Source: Methanoculleus sp.
GTDB taxonomy: Archaea; Halobacteriota; Methanomicrobia; Methanomicrobiales; Methanoculleaceae
Reading direction: 5' to 3'
Assembly (NCBI RefSeq): GCF_020696975.1
Contig: NZ_JAJGBK010000032.1
Coordinates: forward strand, 62,001 to 126,000
DNA length: 64,000 nt
Shown: positions 16,957 to 31,989 of the stretch, one piece after another
How the letters are laid out: the number at the start of each line of letters is the position of its first letter
Numbering within the stretch: the stretch's first letter is position 1
Program-made: the position numbers and the translations under genes
Notes under the pieces: model-generated
What the model was told of the DNA's origin: nothing
Database searches by the model: none
What the model saw: only the letters and a program-made list of their open reading frames with translations

Positions 16957-17189
16957 ATGCTCATGGCGCCGGCTGGATATAAGTCCTGCCGCACCCCCCG
17001 TCGACCGGCCGGAAACGGCAGCAGAAATGAGTTCCGGCAGGCGTCTCCTCCCCGCGCGATATCACTCCGACTTATACCTTGATCTCTCATTCTTCACGGT
17101 TACGAGGCGTAGTGGCGATAATGGGCGACGTGAACGAGGCAATTCAGATAAGAGCACAAGATATCACCGGTATTCGCAAACCAGCAACC

Positions 17190-17198
17190 TTTATTAAT
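17190..17198 (+). promoter_or_regulatory. TATA box of the GAPDH gene
   Basis: TTTATTAAT lies about 28 bp before the GAPDH start codon at 17222, and no ribosome binding site is present between them. The spacing predicts transcription starting at or very near the ATG, that is, a leaderless mRNA. Confidence 0.5.
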
Positions 17199-17221
17199 TT
17201 TTGTTCTGTATTCCAACATGC

Positions 17222-18247
17222 ATGATCAAAGTCGCGATCAACGGGTTCGGCACCATCGGCAAACGGGTAGCCGATGCGGTCGCCGCTCAGCCCGATATGG
17301 AAGTTGTAGGGGTCTCAAAGACCAGCGTCTCTGCGGAAGCGTTCATCGCAAAAGAGCGCGGCTACCCCCTCTACATCTCGGATCTCTCAAAGAAGTCGGC
17401 ATTCGAGAAGGTCGGGCTTGAGGTCGCCGGCGACGTCGAGACGATGCTCAAGGCCGCCGACGTCATCATCGACGCCACCCCCGGCGGCGTCGGGGAGAAG
17501 AACCGGCCGATCTACGAGCGCCTCGGCAAGAAGGCCGTCTTCCAGGGCGGCGAGGACCACGAGGTCGCCGGGTTCTCCTTCAATGCCCACGCAAACTACC
17601 GCGAGGCCGAAGGGCACCAGTTCGCCCGGGTCGTCTCCTGCAACTCCACCGGGCTCGTCCGGCTCATCCACGCGATGGACCAGGCATTCGGGGTCGCACG
17701 GGTCCGGGCGGTGATGGTCCGGCGGGCTGCGGACCCCGACGACGTCAAACGGGGGCCGGTGGACGCGATCGTCCTCAACCCGGCGACCATCCCGAGCCAC
17801 CACGGCCCCGACGTCAAGACCGTCCTGCCGCAGATCGATATCGTCACCCTCGCGATGATCGTCCCGACGACGTTTATGCACATGCACAGCATCCAGATGG
17901 ACTTAAAGAAAGAGACCACCCGCGAAGAGGTGCTGAAGGTCTTTGAGAACCACAGCCGGATCGGGCTCGTCCGTAAGGTTACCGGGATCAAGAGCAACGC
18001 CCAGCTCCGGGAGTACACCCAGGACCTCGGCAGGCCGAGGACGGATCTCTGGGAGAACGGGGTCTTTGAGGAGTCGGTCTCGGTCCTGAACGGCAAGGAG
18101 TTCTACTGCTTCCAGGCCATCCACCAGGAGGCCGACGTCGTCCCCGAGAACGTCGACTGCATCCGCGCCCTGATGGGAACCGTCAAGGATCCGGAAGAAT
18201 CCATCCGGATGACCAACGAAGCGCTCAAGCTCGTCGCCATCGGGTGA
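17222..18247 (+). CDS. gap: Type II glyceraldehyde-3-phosphate dehydrogenase (archaeal)
   Basis: 341 residues from ATG 17222 ('MIKVAINGFGTIGKRVADAV', the exact family start; the track's 17201 start is too early). The Rossmann motif is at 7-12 and the catalytic Cys140 in 'VVSCNSTGLVR'. The archaeal phosphorylating enzyme interconverts glyceraldehyde 3-phosphate and 1,3-bisphosphoglycerate using NAD(P), mainly in gluconeogenesis in methanogens. A hairpin terminator follows. It stands alone, with a TATA box at 17190 and probable leaderless transcription. Confidence 0.95.
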   Translation: MIKVAINGFGTIGKRVADAVAAQPDMEVVGVSKTSVSAEAFIAKERGYPLYISDLSKKSAFEKVGLEVAGDVETMLKAADVIIDATPGGVGEKNRPIYERLGKKAVFQGGEDHEVAGFSFNAHANYREAEGHQFARVVSCNSTGLVRLIHAMDQAFGVARVRAVMVRRAADPDDVKRGPVDAIVLNPATIPSHHGPDVKTVLPQIDIVTLAMIVPTTFMHMHSIQMDLKKETTREEVLKVFENHSRIGLVRKVTGIKSNAQLREYTQDLGRPRTDLWENGVFEESVSVLNGKEFYCFQAIHQEADVVPENVDCIRALMGTVKDPEESIRMTNEALKLVAIG

Positions 18248-18263
18248 ACGGCCAGGACCGGGG

Positions 18264-18299
18264 GGGAGAGATAATACTCTCCCTCGCAAAACAGTTTTT
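18264..18299 (+). terminator. Hairpin and T-tract after GAPDH
   Basis: GGGAGAG (18264-18270) pairs with CTCTCCC (18277-18283) around an ATAATA loop, and TTTTT follows at 18295-18299. It lies 17-52 bp after the GAPDH stop codon. Confidence 0.6.
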
Positions 18300-18350
18300 C
18301 TGAGGGCGGCAACCCTCAAGCACCGGGAGGTCTGGGACTCCCCCACCGCC

Positions 18351-18388
18351 CGCGCTTCGCGCTCCTCCCGCCCCCTTGCGGGGGCGGG
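18351..18388. repeat. GC-rich double hairpin at the edge of the AT-rich island
   Basis: CCCGCCCCC (18367-18375) and GGGGGCGGG (18380-18388) form a perfect 9-bp stem with a TTGC loop, preceded by a smaller dyad around CGCGCTTCGCG. It sits just where base composition drops at about 18.4 kb. It could be a terminator read from either side, or a dispersed palindromic element; comparison with other genomic copies is needed to decide. Confidence 0.5.
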
Positions 18389-18430
18389 CAGTGCGTGGCG
18401 ATATCCTCCATCAGGAATTAGTCGCTAGGC

Positions 18431-18751
18431 TCAAGATTTGGGGCATTTGTAGATAAAGGCCATTACAGCAAGGGCCGCTATGATCAGCCCGACCGTAATA
18501 GCAGATCCCATGTCTTGGGCGGTCTGAGTCTCTGACAACAGTGAGATTTTGGCCACCACAAAGAGAGTTACAAAGGCAAAGATTACCTTTACACCAGCTA
18601 AAGTTAGATTTCCAAAGGATGATGTTCCAATACTAGCGTCCGACCTGATGCACAGGAGGGTTAATTGAGAGATAGTATTCCCCGATGAGCGTGGTGAGGA
18701 ATAATCCCATAACATAAAGAAAACCAAAGACCAGTATCGTAGTTGTTTCAA
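18431..18751 (-). CDS. Membrane-protein fragment, possibly the frameshifted 3' part of the upstream gene
   Basis: 106-codon frame whose last 60 residues are clearly membrane-like ('LAGVKVIFAFVTLFVVAKI' and 'AITVGLIIAALAVMAFIYKC'). It overlaps the 215-residue membrane protein gene by 119 bp in another frame, and the overlapped N-terminal part looks unlike a protein. No good start codon lies after the overlap. A one-base shift near 18633-18660 would join both frames into one protein of about 280 residues. Either this is the 3' part of a frameshifted gene or a separate small gene. AT-rich compared with its surroundings; function unknown. Confidence 0.4.
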   Translation of the reverse strand: MKQLRYWSLVFFMLWDYSSPRSSGNTISQLTLLCIRSDASIGTSSFGNLTLAGVKVIFAFVTLFVVAKISLLSETQTAQDMGSAITVGLIIAALAVMAFIYKCPKS

Positions 18752-19280
18752 TTTCCACTTGATAGCGATAATTCTGACTTACCGTGTACCCTGCTCCAAG
18801 GAGAGCGACGATAATTTGTGCAGTGATGAGTGAAAAGATAAACGAAAGTATTCTTTCACGATGTTGCTCGATAATGTTTCTCCACTCAGTCTGCGGGAAA
18901 TATGATCGAAAACGAATAATACTGGTTTCCGAAGGATTACCATGAATGCGAATGACCAAGAGTGTGGCCATCGTTGTCGAGATAACAAGTAGGGAAGTGA
19001 TGGAATCAAAAGTCACACTTAAGGTTAATAAAATCACGATATACGACACCATCAGAGGAATAGACAGTAGGAAATAAATTGTCGCAACAAATCTAACCTT
19101 CCGTTTCAAACTTTCGTAGTTCTGCCTATGATATATGCCCAATAGTGATATCTGCGCCGATAACCATGGCATAACAAAGTATAGCGTTAAGCCAAAGAAA
19201 ATAATGACTAGACCAGCAATGGCAATTTCAGGGAGTTCGGGATCTGACGGAATCGGCACTTCTGATATATCTAAAGCCAT
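18633..19280 (-). CDS. Multi-spanning membrane protein of unknown function (AT-rich island)
   Basis: 215 residues with about five predicted helices (about 17-37, 65-87, 90-110, 143-165 and 178-199) and an acidic N-terminus 'MALDISEVPIPSDPELPE'. No known family was recognised. A cytoplasmic loop 'HGNPSETSIIRFRSYFPQTEWRNIIEQHRER' lies between helices 3 and 4. Codon use is AT-richer than in flanking genes, consistent with transfer from another genome. The gene at 19289 lies 8 bp upstream in the same direction, so they form an operon. Confidence 0.55.
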   Translation of the reverse strand: MALDISEVPIPSDPELPEIAIAGLVIIFFGLTLYFVMPWLSAQISLLGIYHRQNYESLKRKVRFVATIYFLLSIPLMVSYIVILLTLSVTFDSITSLLVISTTMATLLVIRIHGNPSETSIIRFRSYFPQTEWRNIIEQHRERILSFIFSLITAQIIVALLGAGYTVSQNYRYQVEIETTTILVFGFLYVMGLFLTTLIGEYYLSINPPVHQVGR

Positions 19281-19288
19281 TCTATCGC

Positions 19289-19480
19289 TCAGGATACCAT
19301 TTTGGAATCCAATTTCATTTGCTTATCTTTCCGCCGATTTATGACTATATTAAATATTACAAACAAATACATAAGAGATAGGCCGATAATGATGTAACTC
19401 TGTAACACAGCCCAGACGCTGGCAGTCCCTAAAAGGAGAGAGCCTATAAACTGTATCACCGAAAAAACATTTTGAGGCAT
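19289..19480 (-). CDS. Small two-helix membrane protein (AT-rich island)
   Basis: 63 residues: 'MPQNVFSVIQFIGSLLLGTASVWAVLQSYIIIGLSLMYLFVIFNIVINRRKDKQMK' gives two helices and a strongly basic C-terminal tail. It has no recognised family. It sits immediately upstream of the larger membrane protein on the same strand and shares its AT-rich composition, so the two were probably acquired and are expressed together. It may be a toxin-like, accessory or chaperone peptide for its partner, but no evidence favours one role. Confidence 0.5.
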   Translation of the reverse strand: MPQNVFSVIQFIGSLLLGTASVWAVLQSYIIIGLSLMYLFVIFNIVINRRKDKQMKLDSKMVS

Positions 19481-19879
19481 CCCTTCGCACCCACCTTCCC
19501 GCTCTTACCCTCTCAAAGATACAAACTATCTACAGATATATAAGATCGCCTATATTCAGTGATAAGGGTGCCTGTACCCCATGATTTTACAAGGCTATAA
19601 CCTGAATCTGAAATTCAGACTTCTCTACATCTCTCACAATGCCTGAATTTCCTTTCATAGGCGACAGCGATAGGGGTATCATCTGCACATCCCCTTTCAA
19701 TAAACTGACAGCGAGGTGATTCCGCTTGCGCGCTTCCAGCAGAAAGACAAAAAATTCAAAGAACCGACCATAACCGATTGGATAGAAAATGTACGTAAGC
19801 CCTACTTAAGGAAAATAGAATCGTGTGCATCGACGCTCCCAGAAGAAGCATTAACTCCCCGGCAAACCCACTTCTTTTC
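19481..19879. other. AT-rich gene-free stretch
   Basis: 399 bp between the island operon and tyrS with no convincing gene. The 61-codon ORF at 19716-19901 has no ribosome binding site and runs into tyrS. Near 19607-19619 is the odd-centred dyad TCTGAAATTCAGA. AT-rich stretches such as 'ATATATAAG' near 19535 could be the divergent island promoter. tyrS presumably has its promoter in the last part. Confidence 0.4.
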
Positions 19880-20827
19880 ATGGATCCGTACGAACTGGTG
19901 ACGAGGAATACCGTAGAGGTCGTCACCGACGAGGAACTGCGCGCGCTCATCGACCGTCCGGTCAAGCGGGTCTACACCGGCTACGAGCCGAGCGGAGAGA
20001 TCCACCTCGGGCACATGGTGACGGTGAACAAGCTGATGGACCTACAGCAGGCAGGGTTCGAGGTGACCGTGCTCATCGCCGATCTCCACGCCTTCTTGAA
20101 CCGCAAGGGCACCATGGAGGAGATCCGGGAGATCGCCGAGTACAACCGCCTCTGCTTTGAGGGGCTCGGCCTCCGGGGCGCAAAGTATGTCCTCGGGTCG
20201 GATGTGCAGCTCACGCCGGAGTACGAACTCTCGGTCCTGAAACTCTCCCAGGCAATCACCCTCAACCGGGCGAAGAGGAGCATGGACGAGGTCGGACGGC
20301 AGATGGAGAACCCGACGGTCTCGCAGATGGTCTATCCGATCATGCAGATGGTCGATATCGCGACACTCGAAGTGGACGCCGCCGTCGGCGGGATCGACCA
20401 GCGAAAGATTCACATGCTCGCACGGGAACACCTCCCCTCGATCGGGTATCCGGCGCCGGTCTGCATCCACACGCCGATCATCAACGGCCTCGACGGGAAG
20501 AAGATGTCGTCCTCGGCCGGAAACGTCATATCGGTCGCCGACTCCGAAGAGGATATCAAACAGAAGATGAAGAAGGCGTTCTGCCCGCCCGAGGTAGAAA
20601 ACAACCCGGTGCTCGAGATCCTGCACTACCACGTCTTCCCCCGGACCGGGACGGTCACCATCCGCCGGCCCGCGAAGTTCGGCGGGGACCGGGAGTTTGC
20701 GACCTACGAGGACCTCGAGCGGGCTTACGCCGCCGGCGAGGTCCATCCCCTGGACCTGAAGACGGCCGCCGCCGCCCACCTCATCGATATCCTCGCCCCC
20801 GTACACGACTACGTCTGCAGCAGGTGA
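19880..20827 (+). CDS. tyrS: Tyrosyl-tRNA synthetase, archaeal type
   Basis: 315 residues from ATG 19880 ('MDPYELVTRNTVEVV'). It charges tRNA-Tyr with tyrosine. Class I signatures are 'YEPSGEIHLGHM' (HIGH-like) and 'KMSSS', with 'NPTVSQMVYPIMQMVDIATLEVDAAVGGIDQRKIHMLAR' between them. It lacks the C-terminal S4-like domain of the bacterial enzyme, as archaeal TyrRS does. The next gene, rio1, begins 7 bp after its stop, so tyrS, rio1 and the KH gene may form one transcript. Confidence 0.95.
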   Translation: MDPYELVTRNTVEVVTDEELRALIDRPVKRVYTGYEPSGEIHLGHMVTVNKLMDLQQAGFEVTVLIADLHAFLNRKGTMEEIREIAEYNRLCFEGLGLRGAKYVLGSDVQLTPEYELSVLKLSQAITLNRAKRSMDEVGRQMENPTVSQMVYPIMQMVDIATLEVDAAVGGIDQRKIHMLAREHLPSIGYPAPVCIHTPIINGLDGKKMSSSAGNVISVADSEEDIKQKMKKAFCPPEVENNPVLEILHYHVFPRTGTVTIRRPAKFGGDREFATYEDLERAYAAGEVHPLDLKTAAAAHLIDILAPVHDYVCSR

Positions 20828-20834
20828 TCCGGCC

Positions 20835-21629
20835 GTGAGCCGCGAAGAAGAGCACGAACGATTCGACCGCGAGATCGAGGCGATGGGCGTCAGGATAAAA
20901 GACGCCAATACGGTGAAGGTACGCGACGATGTCTTTGACGAGGTCACCCTGATGGCCCTCTACAAGCTCGTCCACAAGAAACTCCTCTCCGTCATCGGCG
21001 GCCCGATCAGCACGGGAAAAGAGGCGAACGTCTTCTACGGCGAGCGCGACGGGCAGGGGGTCGCGATCAAGATCTACCGTATCCAGACCGCGAACTTCAA
21101 GGCGATGACCGAGTATCTCGCGGGTGACCGCCGGTTCTCGAGTGTCCGCGGGACGCGCAAGGGCCTCATCTTCGCCTGGACAAAAAAGGAGTACAGCAAC
21201 CTCGCCCGGGCGCACGATGCGGGGATCCCGGTCCCCGAACCCCTTGCGTTCGATCGAAACATCCTCTTAATGGGGTTCCTCGGGCGTGACGAGGTGCCGT
21301 ATCCCCAGCTCCGGAACGCCGATATCGAGGATTACGGGGCGGTATACCGGGATATCCTCGGTTACATCCAGCGGCTCTACCAGGAGGCGCGTCTGGTCCA
21401 TGCCGATCTCTCCGAATACAATATCCTCTATCACGAGAAACCCTACCTGATCGATATGGGACAGGCGGTCACCCTGGATCACCCGCGGGCGCCCGCGTTT
21501 CTGGTCCGGGATATAAAGAACCTCAATCGATATTTCTCCCGCTACTGTGATGTGCCGGACGAGCAGGAGATCATCAGCGCAATCACCGGCACCGAACGCC
21601 GGCAGCCCGCACAACCGGGAGAAGGGTGA
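20835..21629 (+). CDS. rio1: RIO1-type serine protein kinase
   Basis: 264 residues from GTG 20835. RIO kinases act in small ribosomal subunit maturation. The RIO ATP loop 'STGKEANVF' is at 59-67, the ATP-contacting Lys79 in 'VAIKIYR', the catalytic loop 'HADLSEYNIL' near 187, and the metal-binding Asp in 'LIDMGQAV'. The RIO1-specific N-terminal helices and the 'NLARAHDAGIPVPEP' segment are present. The KH-domain gene follows 4 bp after the stop, and Rio1 with Dim2/Pno1 is a known functional pair in 18S-type processing. Confidence 0.95.
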   Translation: MSREEEHERFDREIEAMGVRIKDANTVKVRDDVFDEVTLMALYKLVHKKLLSVIGGPISTGKEANVFYGERDGQGVAIKIYRIQTANFKAMTEYLAGDRRFSSVRGTRKGLIFAWTKKEYSNLARAHDAGIPVPEPLAFDRNILLMGFLGRDEVPYPQLRNADIEDYGAVYRDILGYIQRLYQEARLVHADLSEYNILYHEKPYLIDMGQAVTLDHPRAPAFLVRDIKNLNRYFSRYCDVPDEQEIISAITGTERRQPAQPGEG

Positions 21630-21633
21630 GATC

Positions 21634-22176
21634 ATGACCACACAGGAGATGAAAGTTTCAGCCGCAAGGATCGGTGTACTCATCGGCAAGAGCGGGTCGA
21701 CAAAACGCGAGATCGAAGAGAAGACCGGGATAGCCCTCCAGATCGACAGCGAGGAGGGGATGGTGACGATCGAGGGGGAGGATCCCGTCAGCGTCATGAC
21801 GGCGACGAACGTCGTCTCCGCGATCAACCGGGGATTCTCGCCGGAGCGTGCGTTCCGGCTCCTTGAAGACGAGGATATGATGCTCGATGTCCTCGACCTC
21901 GCGGAACTCTCAGGGACGACCCGGCAGCTCGAGCGGCTCCGCGGCCGGATCATCGGGAAGGCGGGGACGTCCCGCGCCCAGATCGAGGATATGACCAGCA
22001 CGGAGATCTCGGTCCAGGGCAAGACCGTCGCGATCATCGGTCTTCCCGACCAGGCCGAGACCGCGAGGAAGGCGATCGAGATGCTGATCCAGGGCGTGCC
22101 CCACGAACACGTCTATGGGTTCCTCGACCGGAAGAAGAAGGAAGCAAAACAGGCGATGCTGGAGTACTATTCGTGA
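21634..22176 (+). CDS. KH-domain RNA-binding protein (Dim2/Pno1-like)
   Basis: 180 residues from ATG 21634 (GGTGAG just upstream). Two KH domains are visible: 'ARIGVLIGKSGSTKREIEEKTGI' and 'RLRGRIIGKAGTSRAQIEDMTSTEISVQGKTVAIIGLPDQAETARKAIEML', the second with the canonical GxxG loop. The ending 'GVPHEHVYGFLDRKKKEAKQAML' is typical of the archaeal Dim2/Pno1-like family, which binds the 3' end of small-subunit rRNA. Position right after rio1 supports a role in ribosome biogenesis. Confidence 0.9.
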   Translation: MTTQEMKVSAARIGVLIGKSGSTKREIEEKTGIALQIDSEEGMVTIEGEDPVSVMTATNVVSAINRGFSPERAFRLLEDEDMMLDVLDLAELSGTTRQLERLRGRIIGKAGTSRAQIEDMTSTEISVQGKTVAIIGLPDQAETARKAIEMLIQGVPHEHVYGFLDRKKKEAKQAMLEYYS

Positions 22177-22220
22177 TGCGGCCGGGGCCATGCGACCCCG
22201 CCCATGGCCATAACAATACG

Positions 22221-22241
22221 TGCAGTCTGCAGTCTGCAGTG
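22221..22241 (+). repeat. Three 7-bp tandem repeats running into an ORB
   Basis: TGCAGTC, TGCAGTC and TGCAGTG lie head to tail at 22221-22241; the last unit forms the first bases of the ORB-like sequence that precedes hel308. This may be slippage, or additional half-sites for an initiator or regulator. Confidence 0.5.
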
Positions 22242-22254
22242 GAAACGAAGGGGT
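22235..22254 (+). other. Solitary origin recognition box (ORB-like) next to hel308
   Basis: TGCAGTGGAAACGAAGGGGT differs from the origin-box consensus of this window only at its second base and has the full GGGG string. It ends 4 bp before the hel308 start codon, in the position of a leader or ribosome binding site ('AAGGGG'). It is about 3.2 kb from the main box cluster. Confidence 0.65.
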
Positions 22255-22258
22255 ATAC

Positions 22259-24397
22259 ATGGAGATAGCGGGTCTCCCCATCCCGGCGGATCTTGTCGCC
22301 GGCTACGCCCGGTGCGGGATCACCGAACTCTACCCGCCGCAGGCCGCCTGCGTCGAGGCGGGGCTTTTCTCGGGGAAGAACCTCCTCATCTCCATCCCGA
22401 CGGCGAGCGGCAAGACCCTGGTCGCCGAGATGGCGATGCACCACCAGGTGGCGAGCGGGGGCAAGTGCCTCTACATCGTTCCTCTCCGGGCGCTCGCGAG
22501 CGAGAAGTTCGAGGAGTTCTCAGGAAAGGGGCTCCGGATCGGGATCGCCACCGGCGACTTCGACCGCAGGGACGACTATCTCGGGCGAAACGATATCATC
22601 GTCGCAACGAGCGAGAAGGTGGACTCGCTCCTGCGGAACCGGACGCCGTGGCTTACCGATATCAGCCTGCTCGTCGTGGACGAGGCCCACCTCATCGACG
22701 ATCCCTCCCGGGGGGCGACGCTTGAGATGGTGATCGCGAAACTCCGGCACAGGAACCCGGGCATGCAGATCATCGCCCTCTCGGCGACGATCGGGAACCC
22801 TGCCGACCTTGCCGGGTGGCTGGACGCCGCGCTCGTCGAGAGCGACTGGCGGCCGGTCGACCTCCGGGAAGGCGTCTTCTTTGAGGACGCCATCCGGTTC
22901 GCCGAGAGCACCCGGGAGGTCGAGCGCAAAAGCAAGTACGAGGACCTGGACCTCGTCCTCGATACGGTCGCGGAGGGCGGGCAGTGCCTGGTCTTCGTGA
23001 GTTCAAGGAAGAACGCCGAAGCGTTCGCGAAACGCGCGGCTTCAGGCCTGAAACTCGGAAATCCCGTCCTCGCCGGCTACGCCGACAGAATCCGCTCGAA
23101 CGCCGCGACTGATATGGGAAAGACCCTTGCCGCCTGCGTCGCGCAGGGCGCGGCCTTCCACCACGCGGGGCTCTCGCGGGAGGAGCGGCAGATCGTTGAG
23201 GCGGGGTTCCGGGAGGGAGAGATCAAGACGATCGCCTCGACCCCGACCCTCGCGGCCGGCTTGAACCTCCCCGCCCGGCGGGTGATCGTCCGCGACTACC
23301 TCCGGTTCAGCGCCGGGGAGGGGATGCTCCCGATCCCGGTCCGGGAGTACCGGCAGATGGCCGGCCGGGCCGGGCGGCCGCACCTCGACCCCTACGGCGA
23401 GGCGGTCCTGATCGCGAAGTCCGAGGAGATGGTCGAGGAGCTCTTCGCCTGCTACATCGAGGCGGACGCCGAGGATGTCCGGAGCCGGTGCGCCGACGAG
23501 GCGGTCCTCTGCACTCACATCCTCTCCCTCATCGCGACCGGTTTTGCCCGGGAGCGCGACGAGGTGCTCGGGTTCATGGACGGGACGTTCTATGCCCACC
23601 AGGGCGAGAGCCCGCGGGCGCTCTCGCGGGCGGTCCACCGGGCGCTTGAGTTCCTGCGCGAAGCGGAGATGATCACCGAGGTGGGGGAGTGGCTCGAGCC
23701 GACGGAGTACGGGTCGCTCGTCTCCCGGCTCTACATCGATCCGAGGAGCGCCGAGGTGATCGTGACGGCGATGACGGGCCAGAAGGACTACACCGATATC
23801 GGCCTGCTGCACCTCCTTTGCTCGACACCCGATATGCCGACGCTCTTTGTGCGGCGGGACGACATCTATCTCCTCGACCGGTTCCTGGCCGACCACCGCG
23901 ACGACCTCTGGATGGAGATCCCCTGGGACGCGGGCGAGGGGTTCGACCGGAGCCTCAAGACCGCGCTCCTCCTGGCCGACTGGGCAAACGAGGTCGCTGA
24001 GGACGAGATCTGCCGGCGTTACAACGTCGGCCCCGGGGACGTCTACGGTATGGTGGAGAGCGTTGCCTGGCTGGTCCACGCGAGCCGCCACCTTGCCGGG
24101 CTCTTTGCCCCGCACCTCGCGGGCCCCATCGAAGAGATGGAGCTCCGGACCAAGCACGGTATCAAGAAGGAACTCCTGCCCCTCATCAGGCTCCGCGGGA
24201 TCGGGCGCGTCCGGGCGCGCCGGCTCTTTGACAACAACCTTGGATCCATCGAGGCGCTCCGCGCGGCCGGACCGGAGAAGGTCGGGAGAGTCCTCGGGCA
24301 GGGGATTGCCGCCCGGATATTCGAGCAGCTCGAGGGGGCGCGGGAGGAGATCGGGGAGGTCTCTCTGGAGCAGTCGACCCTCTCCCGGTTCGGGTGA
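22259..24397 (+). CDS. hel308: Hel308 ATP-dependent DNA helicase (Ski2-like)
   Basis: 712 residues from ATG 22259. Hel308 unwinds lagging-strand forks and acts in fork repair. Walker A 'IPTASGKT' (46-53), the DEAH-type box '[10 protein letters not shown]', '[10 protein letters not shown]' (motif III), and motif VI '[11 protein letters not shown]' are all present, then a winged helix and a ratchet region with '[14 protein letters not shown]'. The C-terminus '[19 protein letters not shown]' is the helix-hairpin-helix domain. The family usually has 690-720 residues, so it is complete. cgi121 follows 7 bp later. An ORB-like sequence directly abuts the start. Confidence 0.94.
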
Positions 24398-24404
24398 ATA
24401 AGAT

Positions 24405-24920
24405 ATGACAAAACCAGCGTGCGATATCTACCCGGCGGTCTTCACCGTCGATGACAAGATGAGGTTCTTAAACGAGATCCGCACGATCGCCGATGCGTGC
24501 GATACCCATATCATCCTCTTTGACGCCGACCGCCTGGCCGGGCGCGATCACGTGGAGGCGGCGCTCCGGCACGCCTGGCGGTCGTGGACCGGCGGTGAGC
24601 CGATAGCAAACTCGTTCGAGATGGAGGCGCTCCTCTACGCCGCGGGAACCCGGCAGTGCCAGGTGGCCTCGGCCTTCGGGGTCCACCCGGGGGAGAACCA
24701 CTCCTACATCGCCGTCTGCCCCCCGGCGCCGGGGGTCCGCGACCGGCTTGCCGGTCTTGTCCGGTTCGCCGACGGGGACTGGGATGGGATCGAGCCCGCA
24801 AAGCGGGCCCTTCTTGCGGACCTCTTTGATATCACGCCGGAAGAGGTCGCGGTCGTCGGCGAGGACAGGTTCCGCGATCTCGTCCTTGAACGGGTGGCGC
24901 TCCTCGACGTCTACCGCTGA
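24405..24920 (+). CDS. cgi121: KEOPS complex subunit Cgi121
   Basis: 171 residues. KEOPS makes the universal N6-threonylcarbamoyladenosine (t6A37) of tRNAs; Cgi121 binds the tRNA 3' end and the Bud32 kinase. The recognisable core is 'ANSFEMEALLYAAGTRQCQVASAFGVHPGENHSYIAVCPP', followed by a C-terminal helical part 'ITPEEVAVVGEDRFRDLVLERVAL'. The other KEOPS genes are not in the window. The gene follows hel308 by 7 bp, an arrangement I recall from other methanogens, and its end overlaps the convergent moaB by 10 bp. Confidence 0.9.
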   Translation: MTKPACDIYPAVFTVDDKMRFLNEIRTIADACDTHIILFDADRLAGRDHVEAALRHAWRSWTGGEPIANSFEMEALLYAAGTRQCQVASAFGVHPGENHSYIAVCPPAPGVRDRLAGLVRFADGDWDGIEPAKRALLADLFDITPEEVAVVGEDRFRDLVLERVALLDVYR

Positions 24921-25408
24921 CCCGCGGAGGCGTGGGTGAGGATGTGCCGGATCTCGGGGATGATGATCTTTTTTGCGGCAAGCGTGACCGCCTTCGTCGA
25001 GCCCGGGGTGCAGAAGACCACCCGGCCGCCGGCGACCCCGGCGATCGCCCGGGAGAGGATCGCGGCGGTCCCGATCTCATCGTAACTCTTGAGCCGGAAG
25101 AGTTCTCCGAACCCGTCGATCGTCTTCTCAAGCAGCGGCGCGACCGCCTCGATCGTCACGTCGTCCGGCGTGAGCCCGGTCCCCCCGGTGACGATGACGC
25201 AGGTGGCGCGCGTAAGCGCCGTCCGGACCTCGGCGCGGATCCGCTCGATATCGTCCGGGACGATGGCGTAGTGGGTCACCTCGATACCCGCAGCGGTGAG
25301 GAGGTCGATGAGGGTCTTCCCGCTGGTATCGCTCTCCGGCTTCCGGCTCGAGGAGACGGTGATGACCGCACCCGTCACAGCGAGGGGCTTAAGATGATTG
25401 CTCTCCAT
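24911..25408 (-). CDS. moaB: Molybdenum cofactor biosynthesis protein MoaB/MogA family
   Basis: 165 residues. It adenylylates molybdopterin before metal insertion (Mo or W cofactors are needed by methanogen formylmethanofuran dehydrogenase). The MPT-binding signature 'VIVTGGTGLTPDDVTIEAV' is intact, followed by 'GEFELFR'-equivalent 'GELFRLKSYDEIGTAAILSRA' and 'VFCTPGSTKAVTLA'. It stands at the left border of the origin region with its 5' end facing it, so its promoter lies next to the leftmost ORB. Confidence 0.92.
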   Translation of the reverse strand: MESNHLKPLAVTGAVITVSSSRKPESDTSGKTLIDLLTAAGIEVTHYAIVPDDIERIRAEVRTALTRATCVIVTGGTGLTPDDVTIEAVAPLLEKTIDGFGELFRLKSYDEIGTAAILSRAIAGVAGGRVVFCTPGSTKAVTLAAKKIIIPEIRHILTHASAGQR

Positions 25409-25480
25409 AGGATCTTCCAGTACTCCTGTACCGCGTATTTTACTTCTTTCTATCTCCCGCGAAGCGGGGCGCCATCCCCA

Positions 25481-25500
25481 ACCCCTTTGTTTCGACTGGA
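25481..25500 (-). other. Origin recognition box ORB-1
   Basis: Read on the minus strand it is TCCAGTCGAAACAAAGGGGT, identical over 20 bp to the box at 26403 but inverted; the identity extends through GG GG beyond one variable base. The G-string points left, away from the repeat block. Confidence 0.85.
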
Positions 25501-25644
25501 GAGTCAGGGGGGCCCCGGGGGTCGAGGGGGTGGTTGAGGGGGGAGGGGAGGGGAGAGATCCCGGGTTCTTCGGCGGTTAATAGGGTTTATCGTAGTTTTG
25601 CGTAGAGATTCCCGTAAACCGGAGGGGCCAGTCCGGCGGGGGAG

Positions 25645-25975
25645 GAGAGAGGGAGCCGCGGGTTGTTAGTGAGGATCCGGGATGGGAGAGAGGGAGCCGC
25701 GGGTTGTTAGTGAGGATCCGGGATGGGAGAGAGCCGGGATCCCGAGATGACGTTGTGGGTTGTTGATAAAGATCCGGGATGGGAGAGAGCCGGGATCCCG
25801 AGATGACGTTGTGGGTTGTTGATGAGGATCCGGGGTAGGAGAGAACCGTGACCGGGGAATGTCGATGAGGATCTGGGGGTGGGAAGATAAGCACTGGAGG
25901 CTACCGATGAGGAGCCGGGCGGGAAGAGGAGGAGCATTCGAGGTTGTCAGTGAGGAGCCAGGGAGGAGGGAGTTC
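25645..25975 (+). repeat. Tandem repeat block within the origin region
   Basis: Two identical 41-bp units (25645-25685, 25686-25726), two near-identical 56/57-bp units (25727-25782, 25783-25839) and about three degenerate units follow. Each unit centres on 'GGTTGTT(A/G)(G/A)TGAGGATCC' and ends 'GGGATGGGAGAGA' or a variant. The longer units carry extra sequence around 'CGGGATCCCGAGATGACG'. Long minus-strand ORFs through it are by-products of the repeat. Confidence 0.9.
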
Positions 25976-26009
25976 AACCCGATAGCGGTTTGATCGTCCC
26001 CTGACTCTG

Positions 26010-26310
26010 ATTGATCCAGGATCCTTTCGCACCGTTCCCGGGTTTCCTCTTTATTTCCAGCTTTGTATCTTCCTGTTCCTGGTTCTCGTCTCACTACTTT
26101 GGGTTTCTCTTGCCCCCTGCTTCCCGTTCTCCTCTCCTGACTTCCAGCTTCTCGTGCTCCCGGACCTTTTCTCTCTGTCCCTGGTTCTCCTCTTACTGTT
26201 TCAGGTTTTCTCTTTCTGCGCTATTCCTTTTTGTTGTTCCAGTCCTTTTTCCCTGTATTTTTTTTCTTCTCTTCATTTTTTGCTCTTCTTCTTGTACTCT
26301 GTACTGTACC
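26010..26310 (+). other. Pyrimidine-rich tract, candidate duplex unwinding element
   Basis: About 300 bp of T/C-rich top strand with long runs such as TTTTTTTTCTTCTCTTC near 26260-26276. Inside are two loose copies of 'CCTGGTTCTC(G/C)TCTYACT' about 102 bp apart (26078 and 26180). It lies between ORB-1 and ORB-2, where the duplex would be melted. Confidence 0.55.
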
Positions 26311-26327
26311 GGTAAAACTTTATATCT
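26311..26327 (+). promoter_or_regulatory. Strong archaeal promoter element in the origin
   Basis: 'TAAAACTTTATATCTTG' combines a purine-rich BRE-like run with TTTATATC, facing orc1/cdc6 about 300 bp upstream of it. No convincing gene lies in between, so it may drive a leader RNA or a long-leader initiator transcript. Confidence 0.5.
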
Positions 26328-26372
26328 TGAGTTTCAGAGGTACACATGACTATCATCATCACTTTTGATTGT

Positions 26373-26394
26373 ATGATACAACCTGGTGTATCAT
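26373..26394. promoter_or_regulatory. Inverted repeat next to ORB-2
   Basis: ATGATACA (26373-26380) and TGTATCAT (26387-26394) are perfect 8-bp arms around ACCTGG, ending 8 bp before ORB-2. This is typical operator geometry, possibly for a regulator of the initiator gene or of origin firing. Confidence 0.55.
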
Positions 26395-26402
26395 CATCAC
26401 GT

Positions 26403-26422
26403 TCCAGTCGAAACAAAGGGGT
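26403..26422 (+). other. Origin recognition box ORB-2
   Basis: TCCAGTCGAAACAAAGGGGT, identical to the inverted ORB-1 and followed by CGGGG. The G-string points toward orc1/cdc6. Confidence 0.85.
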
Positions 26423-26521
26423 CGGGGCGATCCCGGGATCCCTCCTCCCGGACATCTCCCGGTATCATCCTCCTCACCCGGAGTTCGCCGGGATTCTCCT
26501 GCCAGCCCCTCCCTTTCGAGT

Positions 26522-26541
26522 TCCACTGGAAACGAAGGGGT
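26522..26541 (+). other. Origin recognition box ORB-3
   Basis: TCCACTGGAAACGAAGGGGT, the same orientation as ORB-2, 119 bp away and 78 bp before the initiator start codon. It agrees with the mini-ORB core known from archaeal origins (CCACTGGAAAC...AAGGGGT). Confidence 0.88.
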
Positions 26542-26619
26542 TATCAGTCACGAAAACGATCATATTAAGGGTCCCTGACACGAAAATCTCCTGTCCGGGT
26601 AACCCCCTCCGGTGACACC

Positions 26620-27903
26620 ATGTCGGACGATAAGACTAATCCAATGGGACTATTCAAAAAATACCTGACCAATAGACGTATATTTAAGAACAGGGAGGTT
26701 CTGCGCCACAGCTATCGTCCTCACATTCTTCCTCACCGGAAACCGCAGATCGACGAGCTCGCCTCTATCCTTGCCCCTGCCCTCACGAACGAGACCCCGT
26801 CAAACATCCTCATCTACGGCAAGACCGGGACCGGGAAGACGGCAACGGTCCGGTACGTGGGGACCGAGCTTGAGAACGCAAGCGCCCTTGCCGGGACGAA
26901 GTGCAAGATCGTCCACCTCAACTGCGAGGTGATCGATACCCAGTACCGTGTCCTCGCCCAGATCGCAAACTGCCTCGACGACGCCGACGAGCACCCGAGC
27001 GACAGTACCCGAAGCCACATCCCGATGACCGGGTGGCCGACCGACCAGGTCTACATGGAGCTCAAGAACCAGCTCGAGAGCAACGGCGGGGTGATGGTCA
27101 TCATCCTCGACGAGATCGACAAACTCGTCAAGAAGAGCGGCGACGACACCCTCTATAACCTCACCCGGATCAACTCCGACCTCAAGTTCGCGAAGGTCAG
27201 CATCATCGGGATCTCAAACGACCTCCGGTTCACCGACTTCCTGGACCCCCGGGTCCTCTCCTCCCTCTCCGAGGAGGAGATCGTCTTTCCCCCCTACAAC
27301 GCCCCGCAGCTCTGCGACATTCTCCAGCAGCGCGCCGAGATGGCCTTCGTCGAGGGGGCGCTCGACGAGACGGTCATCCCGCTCTGTGCGGCGCTCGCGG
27401 CCCAGGAGCACGGCGACGCCCGGCGGGCGCTCGACCTCCTCCGGGTCTCGGGGGAACTTGCGGACCGCGAGAACGCCGCCGGCGTGAGGGAGAAGCATGT
27501 CCGGATGGCCCAGGAGAAGATCGAGACCGACAGCATGGTGGAGTGCGTCTCCACCCTCCCGACCCAGAGCAAGGCGGTCCTCTACGCCATGCTGATCCTC
27601 GAGCAGATGGGCAAACGGATCTTCACGAGCGGGGAGGTCACGGTGGTCTACCGGGAGATCGCGCGGATCATCGATCTCGACGTCCTGACGCACCGCCGGA
27701 TCACGGACCTCATCTCCGAACTCAACATGCTCGGGGTCATCAACACCCGGGTCGTCTCCCGCGGCCGCTACGGCCGGACGAAGGAGATGTGGTTCGATGC
27801 AACGACAAGCAAGATCGAGGAGGTCGTCACGCGCGACCCGAGGCTGGATGACCAGAGGCTCAAAGACCTCGATATCAACCGTTTAAGAGCAATGTTCAGG
27901 TGA
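26620..27903 (+). CDS. cdc6: Orc1/Cdc6 replication initiator
   Basis: 427 residues from ATG 26620 (GGTGA upstream). It binds ORBs and loads the MCM helicase. Walker A 'YGKTGTGKT' (66-74), Walker B 'VIILDEIDK' (about 160-170), sensor 1 'IIGISND', sensor 2 'HGDARRALDLL', and a C-terminal winged helix ('LPTQSKAVLYAMLILEQMG...SGEVTVVYREIA') are all present. Its length fits archaeal Orc1/Cdc6 proteins. It lies beside three ORBs, so it likely controls its own origin and promoter. The Lrp-type gene follows after 4 bp. Confidence 0.96.
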   Translation: MSDDKTNPMGLFKKYLTNRRIFKNREVLRHSYRPHILPHRKPQIDELASILAPALTNETPSNILIYGKTGTGKTATVRYVGTELENASALAGTKCKIVHLNCEVIDTQYRVLAQIANCLDDADEHPSDSTRSHIPMTGWPTDQVYMELKNQLESNGGVMVIILDEIDKLVKKSGDDTLYNLTRINSDLKFAKVSIIGISNDLRFTDFLDPRVLSSLSEEEIVFPPYNAPQLCDILQQRAEMAFVEGALDETVIPLCAALAAQEHGDARRALDLLRVSGELADRENAAGVREKHVRMAQEKIETDSMVECVSTLPTQSKAVLYAMLILEQMGKRIFTSGEVTVVYREIARIIDLDVLTHRRITDLISELNMLGVINTRVVSRGRYGRTKEMWFDATTSKIEEVVTRDPRLDDQRLKDLDINRLRAMFR

Positions 27904-27907
27904 GACT

Positions 27908-28399
27908 ATGGACGAGAAGGACCGTATCCTCCTCCACCTCCTGGAGGAGAACTGCCGCACTCCGACAAAAGAACTCGCGGTGCTGGCCGAGATGAGTGAA
28001 GAGGATGTAAAGAGCCGGATCGGCCGGCTCGAGGCCGCCGGTGCCATCCGCCGCTACGGAGCGGTCGTCGACTGGGAGCGGGCCGGGGACGGGAACGTCG
28101 CCGCGGTGCTCGAGCTCAAAGTCTCGCCCGAGCGGGACTTCGGCTACGACCGGATCGCCGAGCGGATCGCCCGGTTCCCGCAGGTCCGGTCGCTCCGGCT
28201 GATGACCGGCGCCTACGACCTCCAGATCCTGGTGACCGGGCCGAGCATGCACGAGATCGCCCGGTTCGTCTCCGAGCAGATCGCTCCCATGGACCGGATC
28301 CGCGAGACGGCGACGCATATCATCATGAAGACCTACAAGGAGAACGGCACCACCTTCGCCGAGCGCGAAGAGGTCGAGCGTCTCCCCTACTCGTTCTGA
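27908..28399 (+). CDS. Lrp/AsnC-family transcriptional regulator
   Basis: 163 residues: an N-terminal helix-turn-helix ('DRILLHLLEENCRTPTKELAVLAEMSEEDVKSRIGRLEAAGAI') and an RAM-type ligand domain ('VAAVLELKVSPERDFGYDRIAERIARFPQVRSLRLMTGAYDLQILVTG'). Such proteins sense amino acids and form octamers. It starts 4 bp after cdc6, with the ribosome binding site overlapping the cdc6 end, and the following aminotransferase gene begins 11 bp after it, so it probably controls this amino-acid gene. Confidence 0.9.
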   Translation: MDEKDRILLHLLEENCRTPTKELAVLAEMSEEDVKSRIGRLEAAGAIRRYGAVVDWERAGDGNVAAVLELKVSPERDFGYDRIAERIARFPQVRSLRLMTGAYDLQILVTGPSMHEIARFVSEQIAPMDRIRETATHIIMKTYKENGTTFAEREEVERLPYSF

Positions 28400-28410
28400 G
28401 GTGAGACGCG

Positions 28411-29571
28411 ATGAGGGATTTCATCTCGGCACGAGCCCGGGCCATACCCCCGTCGGGGATCCGGCGGTTCTTCGACATCGCCCAGACGATGGAAGACGTC
28501 ATCTCCCTGGGTGTCGGGGAGCCGGACTTCGTGACCCCCTGGTGCGTCTGCGAGGCCTCGATCTACTCGATCGAGCAGGGGTCGACCGCCTACACATCAA
28601 ACAAGGGGACCCCCCAGCTCCGGGCCGCCATCAGCCGCTACCTCGACACCCACTTCGGGACCCGGTATGACCCCGAGGAGGAGATCATCGTCACCTGCGG
28701 GGTCTCGGAGGCGGCCGATATCGCTATTAGGGCCGTGACGGACCCGGGCGACGAGGTGCTGGTCGCGGAGCCCTGTTACGTCTCCTACACCCCCTGCGTC
28801 TCCCTCGCCGGCGGCGTCCCGGTCACCGTTCCCTGCCGGGCGGAGGACGAGTTCCGGCTGACGCCCGAGGCGCTTGCGGAGAGCATCACGCCAAAGACGA
28901 AGGCGCTCATCGCGAACTTCCCGAACAACCCCACCGGCGGGGTGATGCAGGAGGCGGACTGGCGCGGTATCGCCGACCTCCTCGTCGACCACGACCTCCT
29001 CCTCATCAGCGACGAGGTGTATGGGGAGCTCACCTACGACGGCAACCACTTCTCGCCGGCGAGGCTCCCGGAGCTCTATGAGCGGACGATCACCTTAAAC
29101 GGGTTCTCGAAGGCCTTCGCCATGACCGGGTGGCGGATCGGCTACCTCTGCGCTCCGCCGGCGATCACCGCGGCGGCCTTGAAGATCCACCAGTACGTCG
29201 CGCTCTGCGCTCCCGTAATGGGCCAGATTGCGGCGTATGAGGCGCTCCGGATCGGGGAGGCCGAGAAGGACGCCATGGTCCGGGAGTACCGCCTCCGGCG
29301 CAACCTCTTTGTCGACGGGTTAAACAAACTCGGTCTTACGTGCCACGTCCCGAAGGGTGCGTTCTACGCCTTCCCCTCGGTGGCGAGCACCGGCATGACC
29401 GATGTCGAGTTCGCCGAGTCGCTCCTGCGCGAACAGCATGTGGCGGTCGTGCCAGGGAGCGTCCTCGGCCCCTCGGGCGCCGGGCACGTGCGGTGCGCCT
29501 ACGCGGTCTCGCGCGACGATCTCAAGGAGGCACTCGCGCGCATGGCAACCTTTCTGGAGTCAATAAAATAA
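28411..29571 (+). CDS. Pyridoxal-phosphate aminotransferase, class I/II (aspartate family)
   Basis: 386 residues, fold type I. 'VISLGVGEPDFVTPWCVCEASI', 'TAYTSNKGTPQLR', 'NFPNNPTGGVM', 'LLISDEVYGELTYDG' and the PLP-lysine site '[20 protein letters not shown]' (Lys near 234) are all present. Substrates are probably aspartate or aromatic/branched amino acids with 2-oxoglutarate; the sequence alone cannot choose. The upstream Lrp-type regulator gene supports amino-acid metabolism. A second aminotransferase of this class lies at 54836. Confidence 0.92.
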   Translation: MRDFISARARAIPPSGIRRFFDIAQTMEDVISLGVGEPDFVTPWCVCEASIYSIEQGSTAYTSNKGTPQLRAAISRYLDTHFGTRYDPEEEIIVTCGVSEAADIAIRAVTDPGDEVLVAEPCYVSYTPCVSLAGGVPVTVPCRAEDEFRLTPEALAESITPKTKALIANFPNNPTGGVMQEADWRGIADLLVDHDLLLISDEVYGELTYDGNHFSPARLPELYERTITLNGFSKAFAMTGWRIGYLCAPPAITAAALKIHQYVALCAPVMGQIAAYEALRIGEAEKDAMVREYRLRRNLFVDGLNKLGLTCHVPKGAFYAFPSVASTGMTDVEFAESLLREQHVAVVPGSVLGPSGAGHVRCAYAVSRDDLKEALARMATFLESIK

Positions 29572-29678
29572 ATTAATCTCCATAATTCTCCGGGAGAGAA
29601 AATCATAACTCTTTTATATGAAACTCATGTCCGGATAACGGTTAATTTGCTGTCCGACAGGTGAACGACGGGTGGAGA

Positions 29679-29698
29679 ACCCCTTTATTTCCACTGGA
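29679..29698 (-). other. Origin recognition box ORB-4
   Basis: On the minus strand: TCCAGTGGAAATAAAGGGGT, one transition (C to T in AAAC) away from the canonical core. It faces left. Confidence 0.8.
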
Positions 29699-29895
29699 GA
29701 TGTGGATTTATTCGGGGATCCGGAGAGCCGGGATCGCATCATCCCCATTTCCCGGGTATGCATCCGGTCCAGGAAAATGCCGCCAGATCATCGGGTTCGC
29801 ATCCGCGCTCCGATGAGCCGAATTCGATCACAGATCAGCCTGTCAATCCGGAGAAAACTCCACGCAGCAGCCCTGGATGTATAGAAGATGATTTT

Positions 29896-29915
29896 TCCAG
29901 TGGAAATGAAGGGGT
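29896..29915 (+). other. Origin recognition box ORB-5
   Basis: TCCAGTGGAAATGAAGGGGT on the plus strand, about 200 bp from ORB-4 and opposite in orientation. It shares the AAAT variant with ORB-4, separating this pair from the ORB-1 to ORB-3 group. Confidence 0.8.
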
Positions 29916-30248
29916 TCAGATCCGGTGCCGGCCGGGCGTGGGCGATCGCTCATCCCCGGAAGGTAGATATACCAAGGCCGTTCGCCCTCCCGGACGGCCG
30001 GATCTTCGTCACCTGCGGACTTACGATCCCGCCGGGTGCCCGGCCGGGTCCCAGTGGTCCTGGTGCCGTGCCGTAGCGGGAGTGGCGGTCGCTCTGGAGC
30101 GATCTCTGCTCTGCGGGGGCGGAGCGCGGGCCCGGGGAACAAATATGGGCTGAGATGCCCCGGCTGCTTTTAAACCGGGTGGCCGTTTTCCCGGTATCGG
30201 ATTGTAACGTTTATCACCCAGTATCGCTCCATCCTACATGATAGAACA

Positions 30249-31259
30249 ATGAGTTGTACTATTATCGTCGGCGGGTTCTTTGGTGACGAAGGGAAGGGCA
30301 AGATTGTAGCCCACATCGCTCACCAGGACAGACCATCCATCATCTCCCGGGGCGGCGTCGGTCCGAACGCAGGGCATACGGTTCGCATTGGGGAGAAAGA
30401 GTACGGTGTCAGGATGGTTCCCTCCGGGTTCGTCTACCCGGAAGCAGCCCTCATGATCGGGAGCGGCGTGCTCGTCGACCCCCGGGTCTTCCTCCATGAG
30501 GTCGACCTGCTCGGTGTCCGGGACAGGACCTTTATCGACGGGCGGTGCGGCGTCATCGAAGAGGAGCATATCGCCCGGGACAGGGGAAGCGAGCATCTCA
30601 GCAAGAAGATCGGGAGCACCGGGACCGGATGCGGCCCGGCGAACTCGGATCGCGTTCTCCGGACATCCCGGCAGGCAAAAGACGTCCCGGAACTCGCGGA
30701 CTTCATCACCGACGTGGCCCAGGACGTCAACAGCGCTCTCGATAACGGTGAGACGGTCCTTCTTGAGGGGACCCAGGGCTTCGGGATCTCCCTCTACTTC
30801 GGGACCTACCCGTTCGTGACGAGCAAGGATACCTCCGCCTCGCAGATCGCCGCCGACAACGGCGTCGGCCCGACCCGGATCGACGACGTCATCGTCGTCT
30901 TCAAGGCCTACCCGACCCGTGTCGGGGAAGGCCCCTTCTCGACCGAGTTGTCGGTTGAGCGGTCGCACGAACTCGGTATCGAGGAGTTCGGGACCGTCAC
31001 CCACCGGCAGCGCCGGATCGGCACCTGGGACGGGAAGATGGCGCGCTACTCGGCGATGATCAACGGCTGCACCCAGGCGGCGATCACCGGGATCGACCGG
31101 ATCGACCCGGCCTGTTTCGGCGCGACGGAGTACGACCGGCTGAGCCAGAAGGCAAAGGACTTCATCGCTCAGGCCGAGAAAGACATCGGCAAGCCCGTCA
31201 CCCTGATCTCGACGGGCCCCGAGATGTCCCAGATCATCGATCTCCGGAGTGAGTTATGA
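30249..31259 (+). CDS. purA: Adenylosuccinate synthetase
   Basis: 336 residues, the short archaeal form. It joins IMP and aspartate with GTP in AMP synthesis. The GTP-binding start 'GGFFGDEGKGK' contains the catalytic Asp, with 'GGVGPNAGHTV' and 'LLEGTQGFGISLYFGTYPFVTSKDTSA' typical of PurA. Its ATG lies 7 bp after 'ATGATAGA' with no clear ribosome binding site. Stop overlaps the start of the zinc-protein gene by 4 bp. Confidence 0.95.
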   Translation: MSCTIIVGGFFGDEGKGKIVAHIAHQDRPSIISRGGVGPNAGHTVRIGEKEYGVRMVPSGFVYPEAALMIGSGVLVDPRVFLHEVDLLGVRDRTFIDGRCGVIEEEHIARDRGSEHLSKKIGSTGTGCGPANSDRVLRTSRQAKDVPELADFITDVAQDVNSALDNGETVLLEGTQGFGISLYFGTYPFVTSKDTSASQIAADNGVGPTRIDDVIVVFKAYPTRVGEGPFSTELSVERSHELGIEEFGTVTHRQRRIGTWDGKMARYSAMINGCTQAAITGIDRIDPACFGATEYDRLSQKAKDFIAQAEKDIGKPVTLISTGPEMSQIIDLRSEL

Positions 31260-31441
31260 GAAAGGACCTCATAAAGATCCTCTGCTGCCCGGTCTGCAAG
31301 GGCGACCTCGTCCTCTCGGTGACCGACGAGCGCGGCGAGGAGGTACTGGAGGGCACCCTCCGGTGCGCGGTGTGCCGTGTTGATTACCCCATCAACGAAG
31401 GCATCCCGAACCTCCTCCCGGAGACCGCCTCCGAGGACTGA
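31256..31441 (+). CDS. Trm112-like zinc-ribbon protein
   Basis: 61 residues. Four cysteines, 'CPVC' (11-14) and 'CAVC' (37-40), form a zinc ribbon followed by 'VDYPINEGIPNLLPE', the signature of the Trm112/UPF0434 family. Archaeal Trm112 activates several methyltransferases of tRNA, rRNA and release factor. It is translationally coupled to purA (ATGA overlap). Confidence 0.88.
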   Translation: MRKDLIKILCCPVCKGDLVLSVTDERGEEVLEGTLRCAVCRVDYPINEGIPNLLPETASED

Positions 31442-31449
31442 TCCCGTCG

Positions 31450-31989
31450 ATGTCGGAGATACATCTCAACCAGCGGGGCATAAACGCCATCGTGGTCCCT
31501 GACGAGGTCGAGGCGACGCCGGGAAGCGACCTCGCCCTCCATATCATCAACCACGGTCCCCCACTCCACATCACCCTCGCCTCCTCGGACTCTGCGGCCT
31601 TCACCGATTTCTTCCACGAGAACCTCTACGTGAACAAGACCGAGGAGTTCCGTATCCCCGTCCGGGAGAACGCCTACCCCGGGGTCTTCTCGATCGAGGT
31701 CATCGCCGGCTACGGCGCGAAGAGGGCGAAGTTCCGGGTCGCCGTCAGGGAGCGGCCGGAACCAGACCCGGAACCCGTCCCGGAACCGGCCGTCCCGGCC
31801 GCCCCGGCCGCGGCTGTCCCGGCAATAACCCTTCCGGCGCTCCCTCCCCTCCCGGTCCTTGCCCCCGTTGCCGTGGCCCTGGTCCTCTATGGGCTCTGGT
31901 TCGTCTACCGGGTTGATCTCCTGAACGCCGCTTCGTTTGCGGCGCTGCTTATCGGGGTCATCCTCACATGGTCGCGGCAGCGGTCGTAG
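31450..31989 (+). CDS. Membrane protein with an N-terminal beta domain, unknown function
   Basis: 179 residues. A predicted all-beta domain (about 1-100) is followed by a Pro/Ala-rich linker ('EPDPEPVPEPAVPAAPAAAVP') and two hydrophobic segments ('PVLAPVAVALVLYGLWFVY' and 'AASFAALLIGVIL'). I recall similar proteins next to cobalamin genes in halophiles and methanogens, but no function is known. The start lies 8 bp after the Trm112 gene and its end overlaps cbiB by 22 bp, so it belongs to the purA-cbiB transcript. Confidence 0.6.
   Translation: MSEIHLNQRGINAIVVPDEVEATPGSDLALHIINHGPPLHITLASSDSAAFTDFFHENLYVNKTEEFRIPVRENAYPGVFSIEVIAGYGAKRAKFRVAVRERPEPDPEPVPEPAVPAAPAAAVPAITLPALPPLPVLAPVAVALVLYGLWFVYRVDLLNAASFAALLIGVILTWSRQRS

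Follow-up and report, generated by a model that had tools for sequence, protein, structure and literature searches.

Results

A probable origin between moaB and orc1

The intergenic region between a moaB-like gene and orc1/cdc6 in Methanoculleus sp., a methane-producing archaeon, is very probably the main chromosomal origin (oriC), of the ordinary archaeal kind, and it is accompanied by satellite ORBs ahead of hel308 and behind an aminotransferase gene (aat) that would be further Orc1 sites (Table 1). We hold this combined explanation with considerable confidence. The identification of oriC rests on evidence that is indirect but strong, namely the clustering of the boxes, their agreement with a published consensus, the arginines of Orc1, conservation across the order and skew flips in two relatives. 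It takes Orc1 binding to be as in known families. The window analysed is a stretch of 64,000 nt (positions 62,001–126,000 of contig NZ_JAJGBK010000032.1, forward strand, assembly GCF_020696975.1), handled as contig 7 of a genome of 2,287,273 bases in 33 contigs; relatives with 96–97% identical Orc1 are recorded as Methanoculleus.

Table 1. Features of the origin locus (window coordinates) and ORBs at the haloarchaeal hel308-cgi121 loci.
Feature	Position	Strand	Remarks
Left satellite ORB	22235–22254	+	1 mismatch; 27 bp before hel308 ATG; G-run toward core
hel308, repair/fork-restart helicase	22262–24397	+	NF002654, 1053.6 bits, above cut-off
cgi121, KEOPS subunit	24405–24920	+	NF011465, 140.6 bits
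moaB-like gene, divergent from orc1	24911–25408	-	TIGR00177 domain, 125 bits
Core ORB, left	25481–25500	-	0 mismatches to TCCASTSGAAAYRAAGGGGT; 73 bp upstream of moaB
Core spacer	25501–26402		902 bp; left half purine-rich, right half pyrimidine-rich; fast-evolving
Tandem repeats	25644–25848		TRF; 41-bp and 56-bp units
Conserved AT-rich module	26312–26402	+	~90 bp, kept in Methanoculleus relatives; adjoins inner + core ORB
BRE/TATA-like AAAACTTTATAT	26314–26325		in module
AGAGGTACACATGA	26336–26349		in module; unique in genome
Inverted repeat ATGATACA..TGTATCAT	26373–26394		beside + core ORB
Core ORB, right inner	26403–26422	+	0 mismatches to TCCASTSGAAAYRAAGGGGT
Core ORB, right outer	26522–26541	+	0 mismatches to TCCASTSGAAAYRAAGGGGT; 98 bp upstream of orc1
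orc1/cdc6 initiator gene	26620–27903	+	NF001625, 607 bits
Lrp/AsnC-type regulator gene	27908–28399	+	LysM/LrpA models, under cut-off
PLP aminotransferase gene (aat)	28411–29571	+	NF005816, 536 bits, under cut-off
Right satellite ORB	29679–29698	-	0 mismatches; ~110 bp past aat stop; G-run toward core
Second right satellite ORB	29896–29915	+	0 mismatches
Haloarchaeal ORBs behind hel308-cgi121	L059 3959; L060 4065; L061 3638; L062 5869; L063 3897		five loci

The top match of the moaB-like gene is moaB_proteo, under that model's cut-off. The gene after aat is purA, and both right satellite ORBs lie in the gap between the two. No known RNAs were found at 21000–31500 (Rfam, E 0.1). To the left of the locus, GC content at 17000–21000 falls to 0.48–0.56 against a background of 0.65, possibly marking a foreign insert.

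The initial annotation had read this region as a candidate chromosomal origin with three 20-bp boxes fitting TCCASTSGAAAYRAAGGGGT, two of them identical 20-mers in inverted orientation bracketing about 900 bp. All three are exact matches, far above chance (0.03 matches with up to three mismatches are expected in the entire window), and 25481(-) and 26403(+) are indeed the same 20-mer, inverted, with 902 bp between them. The count of three fell short, as six boxes are present and 22235(+), 29679(-) and 29896(+) had been missed. The genome scan that it called for was run over 2.29 Mb and the boxes are not scattered: all six matches with at most two mismatches lie in one 7.7-kb stretch at orc1, and exactly three mismatches add three further matches. 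ORBs were found in 150/150 genomes of an order-wide sample, where a reversed control pattern gave almost none, and by our own tally from whole-genome scans of 20 relatives (at most two mismatches) 87 of 105 matches fall either at the orc1 locus or directly ahead of hel308. Most relatives of family f1 keep the left core ORB (-) locked at a distance of about 73 bp to the start of moaB and the right core ORBs (+) near -217 and -98 of orc1, the outer one being 96–99 bp upstream of orc1 in nine family-f1 loci.

Two relatives have sites elsewhere. In G027 a second ORB-like pair lies about 17 kb left of orc1 (C1:386847-386866 and 387011-387030), and in G011 TCCTGTGGAAACGAAGGG[GA]T recurs at a distance from orc1 (C1 710548, 736063, 832607 and 836800), probably as an unrelated repeat.

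The initiator gene adjoins the boxes, as annotated, and the closest solved structures to its product are Sulfolobus Cdc6-1 and Aeropyrum Orc1 (PDB 2qby_A, E 8e-105; 2v1u_A, E 3e-102). All four ORB-contacting arginines, assigned via Aeropyrum numbering with an alignment offset of 12, are kept, as two pairs in the winged-helix motifs THRRITDL (357) and SRGRYG (380). The locus thus has what is expected of an ORB/Orc1-type origin: inverted ORBs flanking an intergenic stretch, albeit one of modest AT-richness, an initiator-type orc1/cdc6 beside them, and a concentration of the genome's ORBs at this one place. GC skew, computed from sampled 20-kb stretches of three complete close relatives with p taken over all rotations, splits best within 0.5% of the genome from orc1 in G034 (p 0.03) and within 3.5% in G004 (p 0.0035), but gives no signal at orc1 in G040 (p 0.30). 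The skew change anticipated for an origin here is therefore present in two of the three relatives, and together with the unscattered boxes it supports the origin proposed at the outset.

A second orc1/cdc6 paralog is encoded on another contig, C31 (L057 1345-2493; NF001624, 578 bits), and its winged helix lacks the RR arginine pair. A TACAAT..ATTGTA inverted repeat stands directly before its ATG, which suggests self-regulation. A seventh, degenerate ORB (TCCAGTGGAAATTGGGGGGT / ...TGGGGGGGT; L057 5231-5250 (-), L058 7960-7979 (+)) lies between mch and an ABC transporter, 2.8 kb from this paralog, and is also found in G040, about 1 Mb from the G040 origin. One could imagine that initiation takes place at another site, such as the C31 gene, and that the boxes at orc1 serve as operators in the promoters of a regulon under Orc1, much as Orc1-2 of Saccharolobus islandicus regulates transcription and is not an initiator (PMC9738581). 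We consider this most improbable, given that the Orc1 encoded here has the initiator RR and RGR arginines, that the C31 paralog, without the RR pair, is accompanied by no more than a single degenerate box at 2.8 kb, and that two relatives show a skew flip at orc1.

A diverged spacer and a conserved module

Within the putative oriC, the repeat block described in the initial annotation is recovered by TRF as a 41-bp unit repeated 2.2 times at 25644-25733 (100%) and a 56-bp unit repeated 2.6 times at 25701-25848 (90%), and the pyrimidine tract is likewise real, with 13–22% purine at 26041-26280. The tract's description as easily melted holds only modestly: the spacer's third quarter has an AT content of 0.46 and its final quarter one of 0.63, and the best 50 bp reach 0.72. 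The repeats themselves are not supported as a conserved origin element. The unit occurs nowhere else in the organism's own genome at up to two mismatches, BLASTN of the spacer against other Methanoculleus spacers returned no match, and core spacers across the order span 142–973 bp, with many relatives having only about 140–330 bp between the inward core boxes. The spacer in the window owes its 902 bp to material that has no BLASTN match in the other Methanoculleus spacers. Since the block has no counterpart there and so many relatives manage with a short spacer, sequence comparison indicates that it is lineage-specific padding, at most with a conserved composition.

That composition is nevertheless distinctive. 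The purine fraction around a switch in the spacer is 0.67 and then 0.27, and the same change from a purine-rich left to a pyrimidine-rich right recurs in 18/18 Methanoculleus spacers of at least 400 bp (median z 8.1), each exceeding all 100 of its own shuffles; these 18 come from related genomes and are hence non-independent, while the sequence itself has diverged. Nothing like it was seen in the aat-purA gap, taken as a comparison. The sign of the switch is opposite to that of the chromosomal GC skew. The pattern may reflect a fast-evolving spacer inside the Methanoculleus origin that is kept by composition, not by sequence.

In contrast to the spacer at large, the module next to the inner right core box is conserved. 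It contains AGAGGTACACATGACTATCATCATCA, which has a single occurrence in the genome at up to three mismatches. The arms of its inverted repeat, paired by pattern and with four sequences lacking one recognisable arm, form 127 Watson-Crick pairs out of 144, where shuffled sequences gave a mean of 114 and a maximum of 124 in 5000; compensatory pair types (TA/CG and AT/GC/CG) occur, and in family f4 the equivalent position is taken by another inverted repeat. The AT-richest 50 bp of the spacer often falls inside or beside the module. A small ORF starting from ATG 26346 behind GAGGT is not a gene, as its stop positions vary. We propose the module as a duplex-unwinding element and a likelier melting site than the repeat block; it may instead be a buried promoter, giving orc1 a long leader.

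Melting within the repeat block and pyrimidine tract, or their use as a landing pad for Orc1 on single strands, would suit the preference of A. pernix Orc1 for T-rich ssDNA (PMC8287685) and the recurrence of the switch in all the long Methanoculleus spacers. We nonetheless think it rather unlikely, because the sequence is not conserved, many relatives lack the expansion and the AT-richest 50 bp tends to sit in or beside the module, which we prefer as the site of opening.

Satellite boxes at hel308 and behind aat

Counted over non-redundant loci of the order, an ORB lies upstream of hel308 in 51/74 relatives, 27–48 bp away and always on the plus strand (51/51). Methanoculleus-like loci have it in 19 of 20 cases, with the distance to the ATG exactly 27 bp in each; among the other loci of the order it is present in 32 of 54, at 27–48 bp. 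Behind aat an ORB is found at 52/106 loci (26/27 Methanoculleus-like and 26/79 others), on the minus strand in 52/52, and the second right satellite is shared by most, not all, family-f1 relatives. Where hel308 has moved away from orc1, to 10.8 kb in G009 and G003 and to 43 kb in G037, the ORB is still directly upstream of the helicase gene, and from this movement with the gene we conclude that the left satellite belongs to hel308. Family f5 has a degenerate hel308 ORB and mostly lacks the right one, so the satellites are not essential in every member. Among the Methanosarcinales genomes listed, no match was found near hel308; satellite-like sites in Methanosarcina (TCCAGTGGAAATAGTGGGGT) include one in G225 within a radical-SAM coding region (PVEIVG), which was not counted.

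The hel308 box is not a coding extension, as distances of 27–48 bp do not keep a fixed frame, nor is it a ribosome-binding site alone in the lineages with 40–48 bp spacing, although at 27 bp from the ATG its GGGGT end could be partly ribosome-binding. A weak TATA-like AACAATACG precedes the box by about 15–20 bp, a spacing that would place the start of transcription inside the box, so that bound Orc1 would repress or time the helicase. Behind aat, a TATA-like CTCTTTTATA with a short dyad, CTGTCCGACAG, after it (29606-29660) is partly conserved and could mark an unannotated transcript.

The geometry of the satellites is fixed, the outer boxes facing inward and the core boxes outward, and the right pair of family f1 repeats the -/+ design. 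Both features would fit a single initiation zone of about 8 kb, in which Orc1 on each of the six boxes loads MCM or loops DNA and helicases set off from several points. We regard such a zone as unlikely: relatives in which hel308 sits 10.8 or 43 kb away from orc1 keep the left box at the helicase gene, the distance from box to orc1 ranges over 3.6–6.7 kb, and the right boxes of family f2 are -/-, not inverted. Somewhat less unlikely, though still improbable, is that all satellites including the hel308 box mainly titrate Orc1 in the manner of datA, without gene-specific regulation. Haloarcula hispanica oriC2D is a precedent for this (PMC3936714), yet it has 11 boxes against one to two per site here, and titration leaves unexplained both the exact 27-bp spacing at hel308 (19/19 loci) and the movement of the box with the gene.

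Discussion

Proteins of the Orc1 family bind ORBs, open the DNA and load MCM. At the origin proposed here, Orc1 encoded next door would bind 25481(-), 26403(+) and 26522(+), the DNA beside these core boxes would open, most likely in the 26312-26402 module, and MCM would be loaded on both sides of the opened DNA. The satellites would provide further sites for the same protein. At hel308, where the box overlaps the expected transcription start, Orc1 could repress or time expression of the helicase, a role that the upstream sequence makes slightly more probable than its absence. The pair behind aat might mainly hold surplus Orc1, like the downstream cluster of Haloarcula oriC2; by that analogy titration at the right pair is an appreciable possibility, though short of an even chance. 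With similar reserve, we suggest that across the Methanomicrobiales Orc1 may be a dedicated regulator of Hel308 through the ORB in its start region, wiring initiation to fork rescue, with the Methanoculleus spacer kept by composition alone.

Archaeal origins have been described, yet for the most part it is unsettled how initiation is held back or scheduled in archaea, the one experimental case cited here being Haloarcula oriC2D. The occurrence across the order of extra boxes at hel308 and downstream of orc1 suggests a control circuit: orientation-locked additional initiator sites, one of them tied to hel308 even when the gene has moved, are candidates for control by the initiator itself, a parallel to the DnaA boxes of bacterial promoters. 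Methanoculleus is common in biogas reactors, and the analysis provides a precise predicted origin map for it.

The origin itself appears to be of a known kind. The published ORB consensus for Methanomicrobia is TCCA[GC]T[GT]GAAA[CT][AG]A[AT]GGGGT, and the present boxes, like those of the Methanomicrobia origins in DoriC and Ori-Finder 2, have the identical consensus and an intergenic position next to orc1/cdc6; the description of those origins includes neither satellites tied to hel308 and aat nor the 26312-26402 module (PMC4164010). In the open-access literature searched, we found no description of the satellite layout, of the module or of such a control circuit, and by sequence comparison the layout and the module seem to go beyond the known type.

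Haloarcula hispanica offers the closest parallels for individual features. Its oriC2 also has initiator sites downstream of the initiator gene, and the ORB-rich oriC2D restrains oriC2, likely by titration of Cdc6E (PMC3936714). Its 11 boxes lie directly behind cdc6E, whereas here the region directly downstream of orc1 is not ORB-rich and one or two boxes lie about 3 kb away, 1.8–2.0 kb past the orc1 stop, with one more at hel308; the right satellite pair may still function in a similar way. In oriC1 of the same species an inverted repeat lies within the ORB pair and beside one of its boxes (PMC3936714), as it does in the module, but that repeat is G-rich and ATGATACA/TGTATCAT is not.

For Haloferax volcanii an ORB cluster has been predicted at purO and 'cgi' (PMC4164010), and 'cgi' is possibly cgi121, so that ORBs would stand beside this gene there as well. 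In five haloarchaeal loci, chosen for having a box near hel308, an ORB lies close behind the hel308-cgi121 pair, in varying orientation and far from the core origin pair (17–40 kb where both could be placed), whereas in the Methanoculleus window the box is ahead of hel308. The haloarchaeal box may be a remnant of an earlier arrangement held in common. Finally, the DNA-damage regulator Orc1-2 of Saccharolobus islandicus shows an Orc1-family protein acting on promoters (PMC9738581), as we envisage at hel308, although it is a non-initiator paralog that uses ANTTTC, and the boxes described here are canonical ORBs of the initiator type.
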